Assembly (NCBI GenBank): GCA_007126575.1
Contig: SLBA01000158.1
Span: 1 to 49,795 of the forward strand
DNA from: Gemmatimonadota bacterium
GTDB taxonomy: Bacteria; Gemmatimonadota; Gemmatimonadetes; Longimicrobiales; Gaopeijiaceae
Length of the DNA: 49,795 nucleotides
Direction of reading: 5' to 3'
Part shown: positions 24,523-36,452 of the stretch, in pieces
Layout of the letters: each line of letters starts with the position of its first letter
Position numbering within the stretch: position 1 is the stretch's first letter
The notes under the pieces: model-generated
Database searches by the model: none
What the model was told of the DNA's origin: nothing
Seen by the model: the letters and a program-made list of their open reading frames with translations, nothing else
Position numbers and translations under genes: made by a program

Positions 24523-25338
24523 ATGTCCGACTCGCTCCGGCCCGGAATCCCCCTGCACGAGCAGGTCTCGGCCCGCCTGCGCGCCGAGATCCAGTCGGGA
24601 GCCCTCGCCCCGCACGAACAGCTGCCCTCCGAGAATGCACTCTGCGAGCGCTTCGACGTGAGTCGGGTGACGGTACGTCGCGCCCTGCAGACCCTCGAGG
24701 CCGACGGGCTCATCTACCGCCGACAGGGGCTGGGCTCCTTCGTCTGCGAGCGCAGGATGGCTCAGGGGCTCGTCCGGCTCACCGACTTTGCACAGGACCT
24801 GGCCCGAGCGGGGCTCGAAGCGTCCTCCCGGGTCCTGCACCAGGCGAACGAGGCGTGCCCGGCGGTGGTCGCGGAGCACCTGGGCGTCGACCCCGAGTCC
24901 ACGGTCCTGAGGCTGGACCGACTTCGGCTGGGTGACGGGACCCCGATCGCCCTCGACCGCACCTGGCTGCCGCCCTACTACGCCCAGCTGCTCGAGGGGC
25001 ACGACCTGGCGACCGAGACCCTCTACCAGGTGCTCGAGCGCGAGTATGGGATCCCCGCCCTCTCGGGGCGCTACCGGATCACCGCCGCCTCGGCGGATCC
25101 GAAGACCGCCGAGACGCTGGGGGTCTCCGAGGGCGAGGCCCTCCTGGTGATCGAGCGGACCTCGCGGACGGTCGGTGACCGGGCCATCTACTTCCAGCGG
25201 CGGTACTACCGCAGCGACCGGCTCGCCTACGAGCTCGAACTGGCCCGCGATCCGGCCGACACGTCCCATCCGACCGACTCGGAGACGGGCATGCCACTCA
25301 GGGAGTTCGAGGCGGTCTATCACCCGGGTCCCACCTGA
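24523..25338 (+). CDS. GntR/HutC-family regulator with UTRA domain
   Basis: 271 residues. The N-terminal winged HTH ([51 protein letters not shown]) is typical GntR; residues about 90-260 form a UTRA ligand-binding domain ([57 protein letters not shown]). HutC-type members sense small metabolites such as urocanate or amino-sugars. It is convergent with the amine-catabolic block, ending 9 bases before that block's last stop, making it the obvious candidate regulator; the effector is unknown. Confidence 0.9.
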
Positions 25339-25347
25339 CGGATTCCC

Positions 25348-26382
25348 TCAGTCGGGGTACTCGATCCGGACCGCCAGCTCCCGGTAGTCGTCGAAGCTCT
25401 GCACCACGCCCCCCCCCGGCCACCGGAAATCGGCCAGCGGCTCCGTCGTGCGATAGAGCGCCGTGTAGAGCGTCCCCCATCCCTTGCGGAAATCCGAGCT
25501 GTAGAGGGGGGCCCGCAGGAAGCGCTGGGTCAGCGACTCGAGCGTCTCGGACTGGTCCTCGAGGCGCTCGCCCAGGTACCGCTCCCGTTCGAGGCTGGCC
25601 GTCGCCCCCGCGTACTCCTTCCAGTCGACCCGACGCTGGTGGTTGGTGGCCAGGGGCCGCTTCGTGACGATCGGCGCCCGATCGGGCGAGAGGAAAAGGG
25701 TCGCGAACGCCCCCTTCCGATCGATTATGGTCACATTGTAGGCCATGTGGGTCGGCACCCGGCGCAGGACGCGCACGGCCTCGGCGGTCGTCTCGCAGAT
25801 CTCGAGCACGTAGCGCAGGATCAGGGGCATCCCGAACCCGTCTCCGACCACCCGGCGCCCCCCGAAGGCGAGCGAGGCGGCGAGCCCTCTCTCGTTGACC
25901 CCGTCGAGCGCTCCCCACATGCAGTCGCTCATCGCGATCACCTGCCGATCGGTCCACCGGCTCCGCAGGGTGACCGCCTCGAGAAGACGCGGGTCGTAGT
26001 CGTAGTTGCGAACGAGCGCAGGCTCCTCGCCCCTCCATACCCCCTGGGAGCAGGACGCCAGGAAGGGCGGCGGGCGGTAGAGACTCAGGAACCGGGCCTC
26101 GACGTCGCCACCCCCGGCGAGCTCCACCAGCTCGTCATACGTGCTCTCGAGCTCAGGCATGTGTCTGCGGAGGGCTTTCCGGCAGGTCAGATAGCCGGGG
26201 CGCGCCGCATCGCCCTCGCGCAGGTACCACCCGCGGTACGCCGGCCAGAACCGGCGGAAGAGGGCCTGCCATTTCTCTCCCGGGCTCGGCTCGTCGATCG
26301 AGGCGAAGATGACGCTGACCTTGCCCGCCTCCATCCGTTCCGAGGGAGCGCCTGCGAGTGCCGGAGGCCGCTTGGGCAGCAT
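25348..26382 (-). CDS. C45-type Ntn-hydrolase / acyltransferase
   Basis: 344 residues related to the acyl-CoA:6-aminopenicillanic-acid acyltransferase (peptidase C45) family. The likely autoproteolytic nucleophile is Cys111 in LASCSQGVW, followed by the RNYDYDP strand (125-131) that in the family carries an active-site Arg and Asp, then CMWGALDGVNERGLAASLAF, as in choloylglycine/C45 folds. Members cleave or transfer amide-linked acyl groups. It starts 4 bases after the ATP-grasp stop; an alternative start at 26334 is possible. In this context it may remove an acyl group added by the ligase, which is an inference. Confidence 0.8.
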   Translation of the reverse strand: MLPKRPPALAGAPSERMEAGKVSVIFASIDEPSPGEKWQALFRRFWPAYRGWYLREGDAARPGYLTCRKALRRHMPELESTYDELVELAGGGDVEARFLSLYRPPPFLASCSQGVWRGEEPALVRNYDYDPRLLEAVTLRSRWTDRQVIAMSDCMWGALDGVNERGLAASLAFGGRRVVGDGFGMPLILRYVLEICETTAEAVRVLRRVPTHMAYNVTIIDRKGAFATLFLSPDRAPIVTKRPLATNHQRRVDWKEYAGATASLERERYLGERLEDQSETLESLTQRFLRAPLYSSDFRKGWGTLYTALYRTTEPLADFRWPGGGVVQSFDDYRELAVRIEYPD

Positions 26383-26386
26383 CCGC

Positions 26387-27922
26387 TCAGAGGATCTTGA
26401 AATTTCCCACCTCCATGAACTGCGCCATCTCCGGCTCTTCTTCCGGATTCACCGGCACGCTGTCGTACTGTCCCAGGACCGCGTCGATCCAGGCCCGGGC
26501 CCGGTCGTTCAGCTCGTGGTCGTCGGTCATCAGGCGCCCGGGGGTGATCAGGATCCCCAGGTCCGCGCCCTGGTAGCGGTAGTCGCCCTCCTTGGTGATC
26601 CGTAGGAAGAACCCCCGGTTCTCCTCTTCGACGGTGCGCCGGTGGGTCTGCGTACGCTGGAACACGATGTGCCCGTCGTCGGACATCTCCCACACCCCCG
26701 AGCGCGGGGCGCGGGTGACGTGCTCGACCGTGTCGGCCGTGTGCTTGATCACGAGCTGGCTCCACGAATCGATGTTCTCGGACGAGGCCCAGCGCGCGTT
26801 GAGGGCCTCGACGTCGAGCTCGAAGTCGACGTCGGACCACTCGAGCAGGTGAAAGAGGAAGAGGGGCGCGTCGGCATGGGCGAAGGCCGCCAGATTCGTC
26901 ATGGCGCTCGCCCCGGTGATGCGCGGGTTGACCTCGCCGAGATAGACCTCGTCGGTGTCCAGGTCGGTCAGGAAGTCCAGCTCGAAGTAGCCCCGGTAGC
27001 CCATCTTCCGCAGCTCCTCGCCGAAGCGGACCGTGGCCTCCCGGGCCCGCTCGCGGACCACCGAGGGGAAGGCCTCGGCGAAGACCTCGTTGCCGCACCA
27101 TCCGCCGCGGTAGGGGGTGAGCTCCGAGAAGCCCACGAGCTCGGTCATGAGCGGCCCCACGATCGTGCCGTGCCGGGTCACGCACGCCTCGAGCGCCGAG
27201 CCCCGACAGCGGATCCGCTTCATCACCTTCACCTCTTCGTCGGCGACGATCTCGTCGGCGTGCCGATCCCACTCCTCTTCGCTCGAGATGAAGAAGGTTG
27301 TATGCCCCGAGTCACCGAAGGCGGTCTGGATCACCAGGTCGTCTCCCAGCTCCCCGGAGACCTCCTTGAGGTGCTCCCAGCTCCTGACGGGCGTCAGCAC
27401 GTTCGGGACCGAGGGGACCCCGGCCCGATCCGCGATCCGGGTGGCCGAGATCTTGTCGTCGACCTCACGCCGGAGCGCCGCGGGGGGGAAGCAGACCTCG
27501 AGCCCCAGCTCCTCGCAGAGCCGCTCGGTCTCTTCGTCGAAGAAGAGGAACATCGCCTTGCCCCCCGGACCCCGCCGATCGATGTAGTCGACCACCTCCT
27601 TGTGCTCCAGCAGGTAGTTGTTGATGTCCTCGATGCAGGTGAACTCCCGGTGCGGCTTCTCGGACGGGACGAAGACGTGCGGGTGTTCCCCGTCGAAGCA
27701 GTCGATGTAGTTGATGAAGTGGAAGTTCCGCACCCACTCGTCCATCCCGAGCAGGTTGAAGTTCGTGGCGCTGATGAAGTAGGTCGGGGTCTGGTTCCGG
27801 AAGAAGTAGCGCCGGATGTCGGAGACGCCCTTCAGCATCGGTCTCTTCTCGGATCCGGACGAGGACCCCGTCTCCTCGCCGTCGAAATTCTCTGCCCAGT
27901 GCTCGTCTCTCGCGTCCGCCAT
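26387..27922 (-). CDS. Biotin-carboxylase-like ATP-grasp ligase
   Basis: 511 residues. Three consecutive ATGs lie at 27928, 27925 and 27922; AGGAG is 8 bases from the third, so I use 27922. The fold is ATP-grasp (carbamoyl-phosphate-synthase/biotin-carboxylase-like): residues about 155-370 contain KISATRIADRAGVPSV, the flexible loop TAFGDSGHTTFF and the metal-binding GYRGYFELDFLTD and EVNPRITGASAMT. There is no biotin-carrier or carboxyltransferase partner, so it is more likely an amide-forming ligase. It overlaps the decarboxylase stop and precedes the C45 gene by 4 bases. The substrate is unknown. Confidence 0.82.
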   Translation of the reverse strand: MADARDEHWAENFDGEETGSSSGSEKRPMLKGVSDIRRYFFRNQTPTYFISATNFNLLGMDEWVRNFHFINYIDCFDGEHPHVFVPSEKPHREFTCIEDINNYLLEHKEVVDYIDRRGPGGKAMFLFFDEETERLCEELGLEVCFPPAALRREVDDKISATRIADRAGVPSVPNVLTPVRSWEHLKEVSGELGDDLVIQTAFGDSGHTTFFISSEEEWDRHADEIVADEEVKVMKRIRCRGSALEACVTRHGTIVGPLMTELVGFSELTPYRGGWCGNEVFAEAFPSVVRERAREATVRFGEELRKMGYRGYFELDFLTDLDTDEVYLGEVNPRITGASAMTNLAAFAHADAPLFLFHLLEWSDVDFELDVEALNARWASSENIDSWSQLVIKHTADTVEHVTRAPRSGVWEMSDDGHIVFQRTQTHRRTVEEENRGFFLRITKEGDYRYQGADLGILITPGRLMTDDHELNDRARAWIDAVLGQYDSVPVNPEEEPEMAQFMEVGNFKIL

Positions 27923-27924
27923 CA

Positions 27925-30891
27925 TCATCGCTCCTCTCGTTCGGTCAGTAGGCTTCTGGTCTCTTCGTCGGGCTCCCGGCCGGGCCTGGAGCGCCCGGCG
28001 GTCACTCCATTTCCCTCTGTGCTCCGGGCCTCGTCGGCGGTCCTCCCGTCCGGCGCTGCCACCTCGAGGGCCTGCAGCGCCTCGGGCCGGAAGATCCTCA
28101 GCCCGAACTCAGGCCGGTAGCCGTGAATTTCGGTCACATCCAGCGCTCTCAGGTAGTCCAGGATCTGGCGACTCATCACCTGGCCCGGCACCAGCACCGG
28201 AAAGCCCGGGGGATACGGCGTCACGAACGATGCGGAGACGACCTCCTCACCCTCGGCGACCCGCTCGACCAGCGCCGCGTCGAGCTTGACGTGCCCGCAG
28301 GCGTCGCTGTCGTAGGCCAGGAAGAAGGCCTGCCGCATGTCCCCCTCGGGGGTGGCGCTGTCAGGATCCGAGCGGAAGGCCCGATGGAATCGACTGAAGT
28401 ACGGGAGCGGGGGCAGCTCCTGGGTGAGCGAGGCGACCCGCTCCCGGTGCAGCCTGCGCGAGGCGTCGCTGTCGTGCCCGGCCCGCTCGTCGAGCTCCCG
28501 GGCCAGGCGGGTGAGCGCCTTCATCAGGTGGGCTACCGTGGCCGAGGTGGTCCCGATATGGATAAGGAAGAGGACCGTGTTTCTCGAGGTCTTGTTCACC
28601 TGGATCGAGAACCGATCCATGAGCAGGCGCTTGAACTCGTCGCCATCCATCCCCGTGCGCCCCACGTGCAGCGTGATCCGGGTGGGGTCGAGGGCGAACT
28701 CGTCCGAGCACCAGGTCCGGGTCATCTCGGCCCAGCCCTGCCCGGCCTGATAGTAGTAATGGAGGCCCGAGGGCCGGTGCTCCTCGGGGATCATGTCGCG
28801 CGGGCCGAGCACCCGGAAGTACCGTTGAAGGAGGTCGTCGGAATGGATCCGCTTGCGCAGATTCATGGCGATCTCGACACTCTCCTGGACCAGGGTGTAG
28901 CCCTCGAGCTCCACCTGGCAGCGGCCCATGTCGAGGGACGCCAGGATCGGGTAGTTGGGCGAGGTGGAGGTATGCGTCATGTAGGCCTCCTCGAACGCGA
29001 TGCTCGCCTTCTGTTCGAAGTCCTCGTCCTGGATGTGGATCATCGACCCCTGGCGAAGCGCGGTCAGCGTCTTGTGGGTGGAGTGCGTCGCGTACACTCG
29101 CACCCTCGCCTTGTCGGGATCCGGGAGGAGGTGGTTCCGGGTCCAGCGCTCCGCATCGGAGCCGGAGTCGTCCGCGTCGAAGTCGGCCTTCCAGGAGCGG
29201 TACTCCTCTCGGTAGGCCTCTCTCTTCAGGCGCGCCCGGAGCCTGCGGGCGGCAGCCATGGCCGTGCGTCGGCGCAGCGTCGGATGGAAGCGCCCGTACG
29301 CGAACCACGCCTCGTCCCAGACGAAGATCATGTCGGGCTTGATCGCCAGGACCTGCTCCATGACCCGCTCCGGGTCGTAGGTGATCCCGTCGAAGGTGAT
29401 GTTCGTGAGCAGGAGCATCTTCACCCGATCCAGCTTGCCCGCGTCACGAAGCTCGATGAGTCGTCGCTTGATCTCCTTGAGCGAAACCCCACCGTACATC
29501 GAGTACTCGGAGAGCGGATAGGAGCTGAGGTACACCGGAAGCGCCCCGCTCATGATGACCGCGTAGGGGTGCGACTTGTGGCAGTCGTGCGAGAGCAGGA
29601 CGATGTCGCCGGGTCGGATCAGCCCCTGCATGACGATCTTGTTCGCCGTCGAGGTGCCATTGGTCACGAAGTAGGTCTTCGTGGATCCGAAGGCGCGGGC
29701 GGCCAGATGCTGAGCACGCTTCAGCGGTCCATGCGGCTGGAGGAGGGAGTCGAGCCCCCCGGTGGTCGCCGACGTCTCGCCCATGAAGCCGCTGGGCCCG
29801 AAAAAGGAGGCGATCTCCTGAATCCAGTTGGATTTCACGATGGACTTCCCCTGGCCGATGGGAAGGGCGTGAAAGACCCCCGTCGGCTTCCGGCTGTACC
29901 GCTGCAGCGCGGTGAGGAAGGGGGTCTCCGCCCGGGCCGCCACCCCGTTCAGGATGCTCAGGTGGAGCTCCCGGTAATAGTCCTGTCGGTTGAAGAGCCG
30001 GTCGAAATTCTCGGTCTCGGCACCGGCCACCTGCTCCAGGGGGGTGTCGGTGACCAGGAAGAGGTCCAGCTCGGGCCGGAGCTCCGCCAGGACCTTTCCG
30101 AGGTGGCGGCTCCGGGTGCTTCCAAGCAGGGAAGCGAGCGACTCCATCCGGTCATCGAGAAGCCCCGCCGCCTCGGGGGCCAGGGCGAGTCCTCCAGTCG
30201 AGGACCGGAAGGGAAAGATGTACCGGACCACCGCAGCCTGGATGTCTCCATTCAGGAGGACCGCCGCCATGGCATCCTCGAACGACCGGGCCACCACGAG
30301 TTCGTAGATGAAGTCGTCGTCGGGAGACCGGAAGGCCCGAAGCCCCTGCTTCAGCTCGGTGGCCTGGTCGAGGGTGATGTCGTCCACCACGAGAACCTCG
30401 AAGTACGGTCGGGTCTCGGAGCGGGTCTCCTCGGCGACGCTCTCGATGATCCTCGACACGTTGACGAGGTCGGCGTACTCGCTGAGCCGCGTGGCCGACA
30501 GATCGAGCTTCCGATAGGTGTCCTTGGTCAGGAACTGGACGATCCGGGCCGCCTGCTCCGCGAAGGCCTCGTAGGCCCCCTTTTCGTAAAACGCCGCCAG
30601 CCGCTGAAAGCCCCGGGGGCCCGGGAACGCCCAGTACGGCTCGTAGGGCTCCAGGGTCCGGAGCCCCCGTGCAACCTCGTCCTTCCAGGGTTCGAGATCC
30701 TCGCCCAGCCGCCGGGCCTTGAGCAGCCGGCGTCCGTGGTCGCGGAGTTCGTTCCAGGCGTCCATGCGCATCTGCGCCATGTGGTACTGGACATCCGGGA
30801 CGCCCGGTCGGGCGGACTCGCCCCCGACAGGCTCTCCGTCGGAATCCGGGCCATCGGCCTCGTCCGGGGTGGCATCGGGGCCTCGAATCAT
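27925..30891 (-). CDS. Orn/Lys/Arg decarboxylase family protein, 988 residues
   Basis: A large PLP enzyme of the bacterial inducible lysine/arginine/ornithine decarboxylase family. An N-terminal receiver-like wing domain (about 155-230; FEVLVVDDITLDQA) is followed by the AAT-like core with TNGTSTANK, HDCHKS, VWDEAWFAYG, and the PLP motif HSTHKTLTALRQ with Lys607 (codon 29071-29073). Enterobacterial members have about 710-760 residues; this one is longer at both ends. The start at 30891 has a perfect AGGAGG 9 bases upstream; an alternative at 30924 overlaps the nitrilase stop. It is likely cytoplasmic, converting a basic amino acid to its diamine; the exact substrate cannot be read from the sequence. 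Confidence 0.87.
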   Translation of the reverse strand: MIRGPDATPDEADGPDSDGEPVGGESARPGVPDVQYHMAQMRMDAWNELRDHGRRLLKARRLGEDLEPWKDEVARGLRTLEPYEPYWAFPGPRGFQRLAAFYEKGAYEAFAEQAARIVQFLTKDTYRKLDLSATRLSEYADLVNVSRIIESVAEETRSETRPYFEVLVVDDITLDQATELKQGLRAFRSPDDDFIYELVVARSFEDAMAAVLLNGDIQAAVVRYIFPFRSSTGGLALAPEAAGLLDDRMESLASLLGSTRSRHLGKVLAELRPELDLFLVTDTPLEQVAGAETENFDRLFNRQDYYRELHLSILNGVAARAETPFLTALQRYSRKPTGVFHALPIGQGKSIVKSNWIQEIASFFGPSGFMGETSATTGGLDSLLQPHGPLKRAQHLAARAFGSTKTYFVTNGTSTANKIVMQGLIRPGDIVLLSHDCHKSHPYAVIMSGALPVYLSSYPLSEYSMYGGVSLKEIKRRLIELRDAGKLDRVKMLLLTNITFDGITYDPERVMEQVLAIKPDMIFVWDEAWFAYGRFHPTLRRRTAMAAARRLRARLKREAYREEYRSWKADFDADDSGSDAERWTRNHLLPDPDKARVRVYATHSTHKTLTALRQGSMIHIQDEDFEQKASIAFEEAYMTHTSTSPNYPILASLDMGRCQVELEGYTLVQESVEIAMNLRKRIHSDDLLQRYFRVLGPRDMIPEEHRPSGLHYYYQAGQGWAEMTRTWCSDEFALDPTRITLHVGRTGMDGDEFKRLLMDRFSIQVNKTSRNTVLFLIHIGTTSATVAHLMKALTRLARELDERAGHDSDASRRLHRERVASLTQELPPLPYFSRFHRAFRSDPDSATPEGDMRQAFFLAYDSDACGHVKLDAALVERVAEGEEVVSASFVTPYPPGFPVLVPGQVMSRQILDYLRALDVTEIHGYRPEFGLRIFRPEALQALEVAAPDGRTADEARSTEGNGVTAGRSRPGREPDEETRSLLTEREER

Positions 30892-30920
30892 GGATCTCAA
30901 CCTCCTGAGAACAGTACCGA

Positions 30921-31814
30921 TCATCCGGTCGGCTCGGTGTCCCGACCTCTCGGTCGTCCCGAGGCTCTCTCGGGCTTTTCCAGCGGTCCCAGCGTGTCCA
31001 GGTACTCGCTTCCCTTCCCCCGGCGACCATAGATCTTGAACTGGACCTTGCGGTCGCGGAAGCTCTTTAGGGGCTGCCCGAGCGCCATGAGGCCCCGCTC
31101 GCGGGACCTTCGCACGGTCTCGAGGTCGATCTCGAGGGGAATCAGCTCCTCGGTCGCGCCCGCCTGGTGGACGATCTCGCCGTGTGGGCCCACCACGATC
31201 GATCGCCCGACCCCCCCGGCCCCCATCCCGTTGATGTCCACGAAGTAGCACTGGTTCGTGGCCGCGGTGCTTCGGGCGATCGCGAGCTCAACATCGCGAT
31301 CCACGGTCCCGGTCAGCGAGGGGTGCAGGATCACCTCGGCCCCCATCGCGACCAGGGTCCGCGAGGTCTCGGGCACCCAGGAATCGTAGCAGATCGAGAC
31401 CCCGAAGCGCCCCACGTCGGGCACATCGAAGACCAGGAACTCCCGACCCGGCTCGACCCCCTCCTCGTAGGGAGTGAAGGGGAAGAGCTTGCGGTGCCGC
31501 CCCACCACCTCGCCATCGGGATCGATCACCGAGGCGGTGTTGTAGATACGGCCCCTGTGCTTCTCGTAGAGCGACCCGGTGACGAGCCAGAGAGAATGCC
31601 GACGCGCCATGGCGCAGAATTTCTCTTCGGCCGGCCCCGGCAGGGGCTCCGCCTTGCTCTTCGACGGGCCGTAGGCGGCCAGCTCGCTGAACACGACCAT
31701 CTCGACCCAGGGGAACTGGGCCATCAGGTTTCGGAGCGCCGCCTCGAGATAGGGCAGATTGCTGGCCGTGCTCCCGATCCTCAGCTGAAGGCCGGCGATC
31801 CCGAAGGGCCTCAC
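30921..31814 (-). CDS. Nitrilase-superfamily amidohydrolase
   Basis: 297 residues from a GTG at 31814 that overlaps the transaminase stop (GTGA). The Glu-Lys-Cys triad is complete: Glu44 (FSELAAYGP), Lys109 (GRHRKLFPF) and Cys142 (SICYDSW). The family hydrolyses C-N bonds such as N-carbamoylputrescine (AguB) or omega-amides. In an operon with a basic-amino-acid decarboxylase and a GABA-type transaminase, an omega-amidase or N-carbamoyl-amine role is plausible; no agmatine deiminase is seen nearby, which argues against a plain agmatine route. Confidence 0.88.
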   Translation of the reverse strand: MRPFGIAGLQLRIGSTASNLPYLEAALRNLMAQFPWVEMVVFSELAAYGPSKSKAEPLPGPAEEKFCAMARRHSLWLVTGSLYEKHRGRIYNTASVIDPDGEVVGRHRKLFPFTPYEEGVEPGREFLVFDVPDVGRFGVSICYDSWVPETSRTLVAMGAEVILHPSLTGTVDRDVELAIARSTAATNQCYFVDINGMGAGGVGRSIVVGPHGEIVHQAGATEELIPLEIDLETVRRSRERGLMALGQPLKSFRDRKVQFKIYGRRGKGSEYLDTLGPLEKPERASGRPRGRDTEPTG

Positions 31815-33154
31815 GCGGTGGCTCCGACGGCCGCCTCCGATCCGGCTCCGACGTGCAGGAGCACCGCATCCTCGATCACGGTGAGCCCCCGATCCAGCTC
31901 CTCGTCGGTGATCACGAGGGGGCTCAGGATCCGGATCACGTTGCCCGAGGGGCCGGACTTGATCACGAGCACCCCGTTCTCGAGACAGGTCAGCGTGACC
32001 GCAGTGGCCAGCTGGGTCGCCGGCCGGTGGGGATCCCCCCCCTCGACCAGCTCCATCGCCATCATCGCGCCGATCCCGCGCACATCTCCCACCACGTCGG
32101 TCCGCTCGGCGAGCGCCTCGAAGCGGGCGCGGATGCGGTCACCCACCTCCATCGCCCGGGTGTTCAGGTCGAGCTCCTCCATCAGACGGATCGTGGCCAG
32201 CGACGAGGCGCAGGCCACCGGGTTGCCCCCGTAGGTGCCCCCGATCGTGCCCGGCCGGGCGGCGTCCATCACCTCGGGGCGCCCGATGACGGCGGCGATC
32301 GGCAGCCCGCCCCCCATCGACTTGGCCCAGGTCGAGAGGTCGGGGATCACCCCGAAGTGCTCGTAGGCGGCCCAGCGGCCGGTGCGGCAGAATCCCGTCT
32401 GCACCTCGTCGAAGATCAGCACGATCCCATGCTCGTCGCAGATCTCGCGAAGCCCCTGCAGGTATCCCGGGGGTGCGGGCACGAAGCCCCCCTCACCCTG
32501 AACGGGCTCGATGATGATGGCGGCCACATCGTCGGCCGAGACCACCGTCTGGAAGGTCTCGCGGAGCCGATTCAGCTCACGGGTCGCGAAGGCCTCGGGC
32601 GTGTGCCCCTCGCCTCGTGCGTAGTGGTTCGGGAAGGGCACCCGGTAGATCTCGGGCGCGAAGGGGCCACACCCCATCTTGTAGGTCACCTTCGAGGTGA
32701 GCGACATCCCCAGGAGCGTCCGACCGTGAAAGGCCTCGGAGAAGCAGATCACTGCGGGGCGTCCGGTGGCCTGGCGCGCGATCTTGACCGCGTTCTCGAC
32801 CGCCTCGGCGCCCGAGTTGACCAGGAGCACCTTCGTCCCCTCGCCCCCCTCGCGGTGATGCGGAAAGAGGGTGGCGAGCTTCTCGGCCAGCTCCACGTAG
32901 GGCTCGTAGGTCGCCACGTGGAAGCAGGCGTGCAGGAGCTCCCCGGCCTGCGTGCGGATGGCATCGACCACGGCCTCCTGGCAGTGGCCCGCGTTCATCA
33001 CCCCGATTCCGCCGGCGAAGTCCAGGAGCTCGTTTCCGTCGGCGTCGGTGATGACGGCTCCGCGTCCTTTGACCGCGGTGGCCGTGGTGACGCGGGGAAC
33101 CCCGCGGGGGACGACCGCCTCGCGCCGTGCGAGCAGCTTTTCGTTTTCCGTCAT
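31811..33154 (-). CDS. gabT: 4-aminobutyrate-type aminotransferase (class III)
   Basis: 447 residues. Class III PLP aminotransferase: NSGAEAVENAVKIAR, FHGRTLLGMSLT, EPVQGEGGFVPAPPGYL, FDEVQTGFCRTG and the Lys-bearing TWAKSMGGGLPIAAVIGR. It resembles GABA and 5-aminovalerate transaminases. The start at 33154 (MTENEK) is preferred to an in-frame TTG at 33181. It is followed by the nitrilase (4-base overlap) and preceded, after 228 bases with an intrinsic terminator, by the SSADH-like gene. Together they convert an omega-amino acid to a semialdehyde and then a dicarboxylate. Confidence 0.88.
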   Translation of the reverse strand: MTENEKLLARREAVVPRGVPRVTTATAVKGRGAVITDADGNELLDFAGGIGVMNAGHCQEAVVDAIRTQAGELLHACFHVATYEPYVELAEKLATLFPHHREGGEGTKVLLVNSGAEAVENAVKIARQATGRPAVICFSEAFHGRTLLGMSLTSKVTYKMGCGPFAPEIYRVPFPNHYARGEGHTPEAFATRELNRLRETFQTVVSADDVAAIIIEPVQGEGGFVPAPPGYLQGLREICDEHGIVLIFDEVQTGFCRTGRWAAYEHFGVIPDLSTWAKSMGGGLPIAAVIGRPEVMDAARPGTIGGTYGGNPVACASSLATIRLMEELDLNTRAMEVGDRIRARFEALAERTDVVGDVRGIGAMMAMELVEGGDPHRPATQLATAVTLTCLENGVLVIKSGPSGNVIRILSPLVITDEELDRGLTVIEDAVLLHVGAGSEAAVGATA

Positions 33155-33306
33155 GAGCCTGTTCGGATTCTGGGGTCGCAATGCGACCGGGTGAAGGATT
33201 CCGGAGCGGGACCCCGCCCCGCGACAGATACGCCCGACCGCCCGGACAGGATTCGCCCGCGAGGCCGCGCCATTTCGCCATGATCGGCGGGCTGGCCGGG
33301 GTCCCG

Positions 33307-33347
33307 TTGAACAATAACCGGCGGCCTTCCCGAGAGCCAGCCGCCGG
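33307..33347 (-). terminator. Intrinsic terminator after the semialdehyde dehydrogenase gene
   Basis: CCGGCGGC (33318-33325) and GCCGCCGG (33340-33347) form an 8-bp perfect stem with a 14-base loop; on the minus strand it is followed by the T-rich tail TTATTGTTCAA (33317-33307). It lies 36 bases after the dehydrogenase stop. It implies a separate transcript for the transaminase onwards, at least in part. Confidence 0.65.
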
Positions 33348-33382
33348 AGAGCGGCGCCGGCTTCAGAACGCCCTCGAGCGCC

Positions 33383-34756
33383 TCACTCGACCCAGACCGT
33401 CTTGATGTTCACGAACTCGCGGATCCCGTGGGCCGAGAGCTCCCGTCCGTACCCGCTCTCCTTGACGCCCCCGAAAGGCAGACGCGGATCGGATCGCACC
33501 ATCCCGTTCACGAAGCAGGCGCCGGCATCGAGCTCGTCGCGGGCGATCCGCTCGCCCCGCTCCCGGTCGCCGGTGAAGACCGCCGCCCCCAGCCCGAAGA
33601 CCGAATCGTTGGCCACCCGGATCGCCTCGGCCTCGTCGGCCACCCCGATGATCGAGGCGACGGGTCCGAAGAGCTCCTCGTCCCAGGCGGGCATTCCCGG
33701 CCGCACATCCGCCAGGACCGTGGCCGGATAAAAGGCCCCCGGCCCCTCGGGCGGCTCCCCGCCGAGCAGGAGCGTGGCCCCGGCCTCGACGCTCTTTCGG
33801 ACCTGCTCGTGCAGCTCGTCTCGCAGGTCCATCCGGGCCTGGGGACCCAGGGTGGTCCGCTCGTCCATGGGATCGCCCATGACGACCTGTCGCATCTGCT
33901 CGACCATCCGGTCGCGGAACTCGTCGACGAGTGGCTCCACGACCAGGAAGCGCTTGGCCGCGATGCAGCTCTGCCCCCCGTTCAGCATTCGGCTCTTCAC
34001 GCAGGTCGCCACCGCCCGGTCGAGATCCGCGTCCTCGAGGATCAGGTAGGCATCGCTCCCTCCGAGCTCGAGCACGGTCTTCTTGATCTGCGCTCCCGCC
34101 TGGCTTGCGACCGCCCGCCCGGCCCGGACGCTCCCCGTGAGCGTCACGGCGCGCACGAGCGGGTGCTCGATGATCGCGCTCGTCTGGTCGAGATCCACGA
34201 GCACCGACCGGAAGAGGGCGGCAGGAAAGCCGGCCTGGTGAAACACCTCTTCGATCGCGAGCGCGCAGCGGGGCACGTTCGGGGCGTGCTTCAGGATCCC
34301 CGCGTTGCCCGCCATCAGGGTCGGCGCCGCAAAGCGGAAGACCTGCCAGAAGGGGAAGTTCCAGGGCATGATCGCCAGGACGACCCCGATCGGGCGGTAG
34401 GCCACGTACGTGGTGGCCTCGGCGTCGGGTGTCGCCACCGGCTCGGGGGCGAGCTGTCCCTCGGCGTGCTCCGCATAGTACTCGCAGACCCACGCGCACT
34501 TCTCGACCTCGCCGCGGGCCTCGCCGATCGGCTTGCCCATCTCGCGCGTCATGAGCACCGCAAACTCCTCGGCTCGCTCCCTGAGGATCGCGGCCGCCTG
34601 CCGCATCCGCTCCGCGCGGTGGGCGAAGTCGGTCGTTCGCCACGCCCTCTGGGCCTCGTGGGCGTCTCCGAGGATCGTCTTCACCTCGGCCTCATCCATC
34701 TCCGGGTGCTCCCAGAGGGTATCGCCCGTGGCGGGATTGATGGCGGTCCAACTCAT
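33383..34756 (-). CDS. gabD: NAD(P)-dependent semialdehyde dehydrogenase (SSADH-like)
   Basis: 457 residues of the aldehyde dehydrogenase superfamily, succinate-semialdehyde-like subgroup: WNFPFWQVFR, TGSVRAGRAVA, catalytic Glu in LELGGSDAY, catalytic Cys in NGGQSCIAAKR, and the ending PFGGVKESGYGREL. AAGGAG sits 7 bases before the ATG at 34756. With the transaminase it would oxidise succinate or glutarate semialdehyde to the dicarboxylate. The intrinsic terminator at 33307-33347 separates its transcript from the downstream transaminase, so the two may be tuned independently. Confidence 0.88.
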   Translation of the reverse strand: MSWTAINPATGDTLWEHPEMDEAEVKTILGDAHEAQRAWRTTDFAHRAERMRQAAAILRERAEEFAVLMTREMGKPIGEARGEVEKCAWVCEYYAEHAEGQLAPEPVATPDAEATTYVAYRPIGVVLAIMPWNFPFWQVFRFAAPTLMAGNAGILKHAPNVPRCALAIEEVFHQAGFPAALFRSVLVDLDQTSAIIEHPLVRAVTLTGSVRAGRAVASQAGAQIKKTVLELGGSDAYLILEDADLDRAVATCVKSRMLNGGQSCIAAKRFLVVEPLVDEFRDRMVEQMRQVVMGDPMDERTTLGPQARMDLRDELHEQVRKSVEAGATLLLGGEPPEGPGAFYPATVLADVRPGMPAWDEELFGPVASIIGVADEAEAIRVANDSVFGLGAAVFTGDRERGERIARDELDAGACFVNGMVRSDPRLPFGGVKESGYGRELSAHGIREFVNIKTVWVE

Positions 34757-34820: not shown

Positions 34821-36452
34821 TCACCCCTGACAGGGCGCGTTCGGATCGGGGATCGGCCCGTCGATCTCGGGGGGAGTCGGGTGGTTCGCGACCCGCAGGG
34901 TGATCTCGGCCGCGAATTCGGCCACCCTCGCCACCTTCTCGTACTCGATCAGGTCCGGAGTGTCCGACGGCAGGTGGTAGTCGTCGTGGAGCCCCGACCC
35001 GATCTTCACCACGGGGATCCCCCAGCGGGCGAAGTTCCAGTGGTCGGAACGGCAGTAGAGCTGCTCCGGATGATCGGGGTCATCGTACTCGTAGTCGAGC
35101 ACGAAGGGGGTGGACAGGGCCGCATTGACCTCCTCGACCCACTCGCCGTACTCGCTCGAGAGCCGACGCGAGCCCACCAGGAAGATCGAGTCCGGATGAT
35201 TCCGGCCCACCATGTCCATGTTGATGTGGCCGATCATCCGATCCCGGTCCACCGTGGGATTGTCGGTGAAGTACTCGGAGCCCAGCAGCCCCGACTCCTC
35301 GGCGGCGTGCCAGATGAACAGGACCGAGCGGGCGGGCCGCTCCGCCTCATCCAGATGCGCCAGGTACTCGGCCACCTCGAGGATCGCCGCGGTACCCGAC
35401 GCATTGTCGTCGGCCCCGTTGTAGATCGAGTCCCCGTCGACGGGCGTCCCGACCCCCATGTGGTCGTAGTGCGCGCCGAGCGTCATGAACTCGTCGGTGA
35501 GCTCCGGATCCGCGCCCGGATAGATCGCCACCACGTTGCGCCCCTCGTAGGGCTGGACCTGCGAGTCCAGGGTGTAGGAGAGGGTCCCGAGACCCGACGT
35601 ACGCGGCTCGCGCGCCTCGTCGGCCGAGGAGGCGAGAAGGGCCTCCATCGCCTCGGGCGACATCAGAAAGAAGGGGGGCGAATCGCCCGGCTCCTCTCCC
35701 CCCTGCAGCGAGACGGCTCCCTTCATCGAGATGTCGAGCGCGTAGTTCCAGAAGTCCTCGAGATCTCCCTCGGCCACCAGGATCACCGCCGCCGCGGGGC
35801 TCTGCGGCCCGAAGAGCACCGCCAGCTCCATGCGCGGCGGGATCGTGACGCCCGGCTCGCCCTCGACGTCGGCCGGCGGGTCCATCCGCACGATCACCGC
35901 GGCACCACTGACCTGCTGCATGCTCAGCGCGCCCTCGGGGACCGTCGGGTCGAAGAGGTGTCCGCCGAAGACGAGGGGGGCCTCGCCCGAGGCGCGCATG
36001 GTCGCCGGCAGCCCCGCAAGCCCGGAGACGAAGAGCAGGTCCTCGTCGCTCAGAGGCGTCGCCGAACCGTTCTCTTCCGCCGTGATCGACAGATCGACAC
36101 GGGTGATCCGCCGCTCGAGGGGAACCCCCTGGAAGTAGGTGCCGTCATCGCCTCCGGGCAGAAGCCCCAGCCGCTCCGCCTCTCCGGCCAGGTAGTCCCC
36201 CGCCATCTCCTTTTCGGGGCTTCCCGTCTCGCGGCCTCGCATCGAGTCGTGTGCAAGGAGGCCGATCCGGTGCCGCAGGTCGTCGGGCGTGATCCCCGGC
36301 TCGGTGGCGCCCGCCTGCGGACTGGGTGCGGGTACGGCGGCCGGCGGTGGAGCCTCGGCCGGTGGGCCCGGCGAAGCGCAGGAGGCGATGGCCAGCGTCG
36401 CGAGGACGCCGAACGAGAAGGAGAGGCGACGAGCGGGGGAGCGATCGAGCAT
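34821..36452 (-). CDS. M28-family zinc aminopeptidase lipoprotein
   Basis: 543 residues. The signal peptide ends in a lipobox IASC (Cys25), followed by a Pro/Ala-rich linker. The M28 co-catalytic zinc ligands are visible: LGAHYDHMG, NGADDNASGTAA, WHAAEESGLLGS, NMDMVGR and DDYHLPSD. Between about 120 and 290 is a PA-like insert, as in many extracellular M28 peptidases. It would cleave peptides at the cell envelope. It lies 45 bases downstream of the SulP gene on the same strand. Confidence 0.88.
   Translation of the reverse strand: MLDRSPARRLSFSFGVLATLAIASCASPGPPAEAPPPAAVPAPSPQAGATEPGITPDDLRHRIGLLAHDSMRGRETGSPEKEMAGDYLAGEAERLGLLPGGDDGTYFQGVPLERRITRVDLSITAEENGSATPLSDEDLLFVSGLAGLPATMRASGEAPLVFGGHLFDPTVPEGALSMQQVSGAAVIVRMDPPADVEGEPGVTIPPRMELAVLFGPQSPAAAVILVAEGDLEDFWNYALDISMKGAVSLQGGEEPGDSPPFFLMSPEAMEALLASSADEAREPRTSGLGTLSYTLDSQVQPYEGRNVVAIYPGADPELTDEFMTLGAHYDHMGVGTPVDGDSIYNGADDNASGTAAILEVAEYLAHLDEAERPARSVLFIWHAAEESGLLGSEYFTDNPTVDRDRMIGHINMDMVGRNHPDSIFLVGSRRLSSEYGEWVEEVNAALSTPFVLDYEYDDPDHPEQLYCRSDHWNFARWGIPVVKIGSGLHDDYHLPSDTPDLIEYEKVARVAEFAAEITLRVANHPTPPEIDGPIPDPNAPCQG

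Follow-up and report, generated by a model that had tools for sequence, protein, structure and literature searches.

What task could hold together a decarboxylase, an ATP-grasp protein and two putative amide hydrolases of different families beside genes for the breakdown of GABA? This question is raised by contig SLBA01000158.1 of a Gemmatimonadota bacterium (assembly GCA_007126575.1; 3.68 Mb, 205 contigs), of which the whole stretch analysed, 49,795 nucleotides in length, is referred to here as the window. Six open reading frames (ORFs), all on the minus strand, occupy positions 25348-34756, and they are listed below in the order of transcription, followed by a convergent regulator gene.

33383..34756, minus strand: SSADH-type aldehyde dehydrogenase, 457 aa (PF00171, E 2e-141; PRK09406, 578 bits)
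31811..33154, minus strand: GABA-T-type class III aminotransferase, about 447 aa (PF00202, E 5e-128)
30921..31814, minus strand: nitrilase-superfamily amidohydrolase (NIT), 297 aa, GTG start (PF00795, E 2e-38)
27925..30924, minus strand: PLP-dependent decarboxylase of the Orn/Lys/Arg type (DEC), 999 aa (PF01276, E 6e-74)
26387..27928, minus strand: ATP-grasp protein (ATPG), 513 aa (NCBIfam NF005096, 'biotin carboxylase')
25348..26382, minus strand: C45-family Ntn hydrolase (C45), 344 aa (PF03417, E 1e-30)
24523..25338, plus strand: GntR/UTRA transcription regulator, convergent (PF07702 and PF00392)

An earlier note on this DNA had described six packed genes of these families on one strand, which is borne out by the ORF coordinates, Pfam and NCBIfam. 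From GABA-T through C45, the junctions are overlaps of 4 bases or a gap of 4 bases; SSADH is less tightly attached to the block, since 228 bases separate it from the aminotransferase gene. Upstream of SSADH, at a distance of 64 bases, an M28-family peptidase gene (34821-36452) is located on the same strand. The GntR/UTRA regulator gene, whose end lies 9 bases from the stop of C45 and which scores 154 bits as HutC-like against a cut-off of 220, is a possible candidate regulator of the block. No close homologue of it was found among the 87 related loci described below, and therefore its link with the block is local only.

Are these genes more than chance neighbours? We compared 87 loci, that is, the best 80 of at least 537 relatives of ATPG on genome contigs together with seven plasmid loci, and the counts over them describe this best-scoring set, not frequencies across all bacteria. 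Genes in the compared loci are longest-ORF calls, and some absences are contig ends. The loci span Gemmatimonadota, Planctomycetota, Myxococcota, Bacteroidota, Acidobacteria and Alpha-, Beta- and Gammaproteobacteria. ATPG, DEC, C45 and NIT occur together in most of them, often with GABA-T and SSADH as well: after gene selection, DEC is present in 82 of the 87 loci, C45 in 77, GABA-T in 51 and SSADH in 43, while raw ORF matches place NIT in 67. The modal order is GABA-T, NIT, DEC, ATPG, C45, with SSADH before or after. DEC and ATPG are on the same strand in 78/78 loci, ATPG and C45 in 79/80, and C45 starts no more than 300 bases after ATPG in 77 of these 80. The distance matrices of NIT, DEC, ATPG and C45 are also correlated, with r = 0.46-0.77 against a permuted maximum of 0.23 (500 permutations). 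As strand agreement and the correlated matrices show, the association of these genes exceeds chance. In nine loci, a protein of about 135-150 aa is encoded between NIT and DEC (L084 5979-6425, L113 6819-7217 and other Bacteroidota).

The earlier note had made its proposal depend on a conserved neighbourhood, and the neighbourhood is indeed conserved over 87 loci of many phyla. The surroundings do vary (ectoine, choline, nif, arginine), as would be expected of unrelated neighbours grouped by accident or through general nitrogen catabolism, but gene order and co-inheritance persist over many phyla, which makes this the least probable of all the explanations considered. The distribution of ATPG is patchy, since at E <= 1e-100 it was found in 12 of 395 Gemmatimonadota genomes and in 11 of 398 from Pseudomonadota. 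Across phyla, homologues share 52-84% identity with the ATPG of the window; the closest relatives among the matches listed, at 81-84%, come from metagenome-assembled Gemmatimonadetes, and a phage collection gave no ATPG match. In a literature collection with few subscription journals, no paper on PRK06524 or this gene combination was found, although an earlier description may exist.

Where does the route lead? The aminotransferase scores 491.8 bits against TIGR00700 for GABA-T (cut-off 507), and its closest PDB chains are GabT. The motifs GGIG, FHGRT, GEGG and AKS are invariant or nearly so in 36 GABA-T sequences, and the GABA-T signature residues are present in 36/36. The best PDB relatives of the dehydrogenase are the SSADHs 4it9 and 3efv, its PRK09406 score being below the cut-off of 730. 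Because both enzymes are ordinary members of their families, GABA should be a late intermediate, and its conversion to succinate by GABA-T and SSADH at the end of the route is well supported by their sequences. The suggestion of the earlier note that the transaminase acts on a protected diamine is made doubtful by the GABA-T signature, and also by the occurrence of NIT, GABA-T and SSADH together without DEC, ATPG and C45, a sign that this end of the route is the ordinary breakdown of GABA.

The preceding step is probably the hydrolysis of an amide bond by NIT. This protein, with predicted catalytic residues E44, K109, E117 and C142, forms its own orthologous group, at least 51% identical to 29 relatives, and reached no NCBIfam equivalog cut-off; its identification as N-carbamoylputrescine amidase (AguB, TIGR03381) was rejected at 74.8 bits against a cut-off of 410. 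Among the 87 loci, 67 contain NIT, 6 contain an amidase-signature amidase and none contains both, that is, the amidase occurs in 6 of the 20 loci without NIT, one of these six being weak and partial, and in 0 of the 67 loci with it. A hypergeometric estimate by hand gives <0.001 for this exclusivity, a value that ignores relatedness, the loci being less independent than they look. Such replacement suggests that the two unrelated families serve one function, amide hydrolysis, in agreement with the role that the earlier note had assigned to the nitrilase. In the route, this hydrolysis would come directly before the GABA-T step, and its product is probably GABA, because there are loci in which NIT is accompanied by GABA-T and SSADH only. 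For example, in three genomes without detected ATPG (L173-L175), NIT is located beside a TonB receptor, sulfotransferase-family proteins and an MFS transporter, and in L173 and L175 also with a MocR regulator, SSADH and GABA-T, where DEC, ATPG and C45 are absent. This context suggests that an amide compound is imported and gives rise to GABA.

Then, what does the decarboxylase act on? Its nearest solved relative is Rv2531c of M. tuberculosis (structure 9n0o, E 4e-242), the activity of which is reported as unknown (PMC12910592). The PLP lysine K618, together with D537 and H449, is found in 72/72 DECs. The canonical active-site Glu of Arg/Lys decarboxylases is absent: in each of the 72 cluster DECs, their motif VVEKTG is replaced by V/I-N-K-T, with Asn777 where the aligned enzymes have the conserved Glu, and Arg781 is present in 69/72. 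Rv2531c belongs to the same decarboxylase family and likewise has Asn in place of the conserved Glu, but has Ile where the cluster enzymes carry Arg781. From Asn777 and Arg781, based on sequence position and general structural knowledge, we infer a substrate that lacks a free, positively charged omega-amine. With Asn in place of the conserved Glu in 72/72, a plain decarboxylase that forms free diamines is doubtful.

The same residues would suit an amide or carbonyl side group, a point in favour of a different route, in which DEC, alone or with ATPG and C45, forms 4-aminobutanamide or 4-guanidinobutanamide, NIT releases GABA or 4-guanidinobutyrate, and the last steps are those of GABA-T and SSADH. 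In this case, DEC would be an oxidative amide-forming decarboxylase, or would act on a gamma-glutamyl amide. The trio of NIT, GABA-T and SSADH repeats the pattern of DavA-DavT-DavD, which are a nitrilase-family amidase, a GABA-T-like aminotransferase and an SSADH-like dehydrogenase; the exchange of NIT for another amidase family and its occurrence with GABA-T and SSADH alone fit as well, and the named hosts look mainly aerobic, judging by names only. Although this is the best account of these three enzymes, it leaves ATPG and C45, the most constant pair, idle, and this DEC is absent from an Osedax symbiont and from Thiofilum, both of which possess NIT, ATPG and C45. Moreover, we know of no oxygenase activity for this decarboxylase fold. 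We therefore regard the amide route as unlikely, and rank it below the protected route proposed further on.

Could ATPG be the biotin carboxylase that its annotation suggests? It scores 789.9 bits against NF005096 (PRK06524), above the cut-off of 684, and the nearest solved folds to its AlphaFold2 model (42 sequences, pLDDT 86.6) are biotin carboxylases, with a TM of only about 0.56; the rows of the structure-model alignments were taken from the window and the genome loci only. The likeness consists of the fold, the ATP-grasp acidic residues and the Asn-Pro-Arg motif, with Asp318, Glu332, Asn334 and Arg336 kept. However, in a profile alignment to pyruvate carboxylase, the positions of biotin carboxylase K159 and E296 are Q201 and A340 in 61/61 aligned ATPG sequences, and we take the former to be the place of the ATP-site Lys and the latter that of the catalytic Glu. 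Judged by its active site, ATPG is not a working biotin carboxylase, and the name of NF005096 is probably wrong for these proteins. A GGW-GNE loop is conserved in ATPG. With two catalytic residues of biotin carboxylase replaced and the ATP-grasp residues kept, the ligase of the earlier note is plausible, because the active site is unlike that of a working biotin carboxylase.

The nearest fold brings in one more explanation, guanidine or urea processing, in which ATPG would attach a carboxyl group to a guanidino or urea nitrogen and the carboxylated product would be hydrolysed by the amidases. Biotin carboxylase acts on the ureido nitrogen of biotin, arginine-linked operons are found among the loci, and amidase-signature amidases include allophanate hydrolase. 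With the residues at the K159 and E296 positions replaced throughout, such carboxylation by ATPG was rejected, and ureohydrolase genes are rare in the clusters, which leaves this explanation very improbable.

The partner of ATPG, C45, scores 163.9 bits against NF040521, well above the cut-off of 85. The best fold for its AlphaFold2 model (pLDDT 93) is isopenicillin N acyltransferase 2x1c (TM 0.71), with which it shares the fold and the N-terminal nucleophile Cys, but only about 14% identity. The predicted autoproteolytic nucleophile, Cys111, is invariant, as are Arg125, Asp128, Asn247 and Arg266, and the Ntn hydrolase named in the earlier note can be recognised in these features. The proteins that follow ATPG in L082 and L098 were rejected as C45 substitutes, since they appear to be unrelated proteins that consist of repeats and carry a secretion tail.

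The C45 family includes Drosophila Tan and is related to acid ceramidase and NAAA, so a cycle similar to that of Ebony and Tan has to be weighed. ATPG would couple GABA, beta-alanine or another amino acid to the amine made by DEC, C45 would split the conjugate as required, and NIT, GABA-T and SSADH would clear GABA. In line with it, ATPG and C45 are the tightest pair of the set, biotin-carboxylase-like folds include dipeptide ligases, and in rhizobia and Roseobacter the genes after C45 are for dipeptide-type ABC transporters. However, the catabolic neighbours and regulators suggest breakdown over storage, and an exporter or carrier was not found. Such a cycle is rather improbable, though less so than the guanidine or urea processing above.

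Which compound might enter the route? In five Halomonas-type loci and two more genomes (L150 and L151), NIT-ATPG-C45-DEC is found within an ectoine-degradation cluster that carries doeA, doeB, EhuR, an Lrp-type regulator, eutB and eutC; in L103, L104, L111, L112, L114, L150 and L151, the module is located between the Lrp-type regulator and dehydrogenase/aminotransferase genes. In the Osedax symbiont, ATPG-C45-NIT lies beside choline/betaine genes and a MocR regulator, and no Orn/Lys/Arg decarboxylase was found in that genome. On the rhizobial plasmids L032, L033 and L034, the genes after DEC-ATPG-C45 encode a dipeptide-type ABC transporter, an amidase and a beta-lactamase-fold hydrolase, and on the Rhizobium leguminosarum plasmid (L032) this cluster is directly beside nifHDKEN. 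L033 has an extra partial copy of ATPG.

The arginine-linked operons are those of Shinella (L030) and Thiofilum (L068), where ATPG, C45 and NIT are present and DEC is absent. Their partners are an amino acid permease, an agmatinase-family enzyme, 5-guanidino-2-oxopentanoate decarboxylase, aldehyde dehydrogenase, D-amino acid dehydrogenase, racemase and RidA, so that the three genes keep company with an agmatinase-type ureohydrolase and with enzymes that lead to GABA by way of arginine racemase and 2-ketoarginine decarboxylase. The racemase (L030 15584-17563, L068 19269-21134) is fused to an arginase-like domain without metal-binding motifs; arginase activity was therefore rejected, and with it the idea that these operons form ornithine by arginase. 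The domain is possibly ligand-sensing. In addition, PuuR-like regulators are found in seven loci, beside GABA-T in several.

Our preferred reading, to which we give a probability of about 0.4, is a catabolic operon with Puu-like logic and non-homologous enzymes, in which a basic amino acid or amine is carried under amide protection to GABA and then to succinate. ATPG would couple a carboxylic acid to the omega-amine at the expense of ATP, DEC would strip the alpha-carboxyl, probably from an N-acylated or otherwise non-cationic substrate as Asn777 and Arg781 suggest, and an aminotransferase and an aldehyde dehydrogenase would oxidise the omega end to an acid. C45 and NIT would then cut the amide bonds and free GABA for GABA-T and SSADH. 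The substrate, the order of steps, the acyl group and which hydrolase cuts which bond are presumptive. The protecting group would prevent aminoaldehydes from spontaneously closing to pyrrolines. In this protected route ATPG and C45 fit as a ligase/hydrolase pair, and every gene has a role, with one hydrolase surplus.

In favour of the protected route is the conserved gene set and order over many phyla, and the arginine-route neighbours in L030 and L068 together with the PuuR-like regulators argue for a substrate most likely of the arginine/ornithine/putrescine family. On the other hand, two amide hydrolases for one ligase are one too many, C45 is missing nearby in L074, L079, L082, L098 and L108, and the arginine route of L030 and L068 is complete without ATPG, C45 and NIT, whose task there is unexplained. 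The ectoine clusters of the Halomonas-type loci and the choline/betaine genes of the Osedax symbiont may indicate another substrate, and we are not aware of a known activity for ATPG, for this C45 or for any enzyme of the DEC family.

The more specific form of the proposal is tentative and somewhat doubtful: a new ATP-grasp ligase would acylate the substrate, an N-acyl-amino-acid decarboxylase of the Rv2531c family would act on it, and C45 and NIT would release the product, as a widespread undescribed route to GABA. If true, it would be the first functional hint for the Rv2531c family, the activity of which would become testable. If confirmed, there would be a new protected route into GABA, with functions for enzyme families without known activity in this setting. 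The set is found in many phyla (at least 537 related stretches), including rhizobial symbiosis plasmids, and the annotation of ATPG as 'biotin carboxylase' is misleading.

How does this cluster compare with known systems? The Puu pathway (E. coli puuABCDE) likewise clusters an ATP-dependent ligase, an amide hydrolase, an aldehyde dehydrogenase and a GABA aminotransferase, and some of the loci share a PuuR-like regulator. Of the non-homologous counterpart proposed in the earlier note, the plausible ligase and the amide hydrolases are supported, and the PuuR-like regulators agree with it, whereas a transaminase working on the protected diamine is doubtful, as is a plain diamine-forming decarboxylase. 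The ligase PuuA is glutamine-synthetase-like and the hydrolase PuuD is class I amidotransferase-like, whereas the candidate ligase here is an ATP-grasp protein (NF005096) and the hydrolases are of the C45 Ntn and nitrilase families. No FAD-dependent oxidase (PuuB) was found among the six genes and the two direct neighbours scanned, and the cluster adds a decarboxylase and a nitrilase. With DavB-DavA-DavT-DavD of the lysine delta-aminovalerate pathway, the cluster shares the series of nitrilase-family amidase, GABA-T-like aminotransferase and SSADH-like dehydrogenase, but in place of the FAD monooxygenase it has a decarboxylase, an ATP-grasp protein and a C45 hydrolase.
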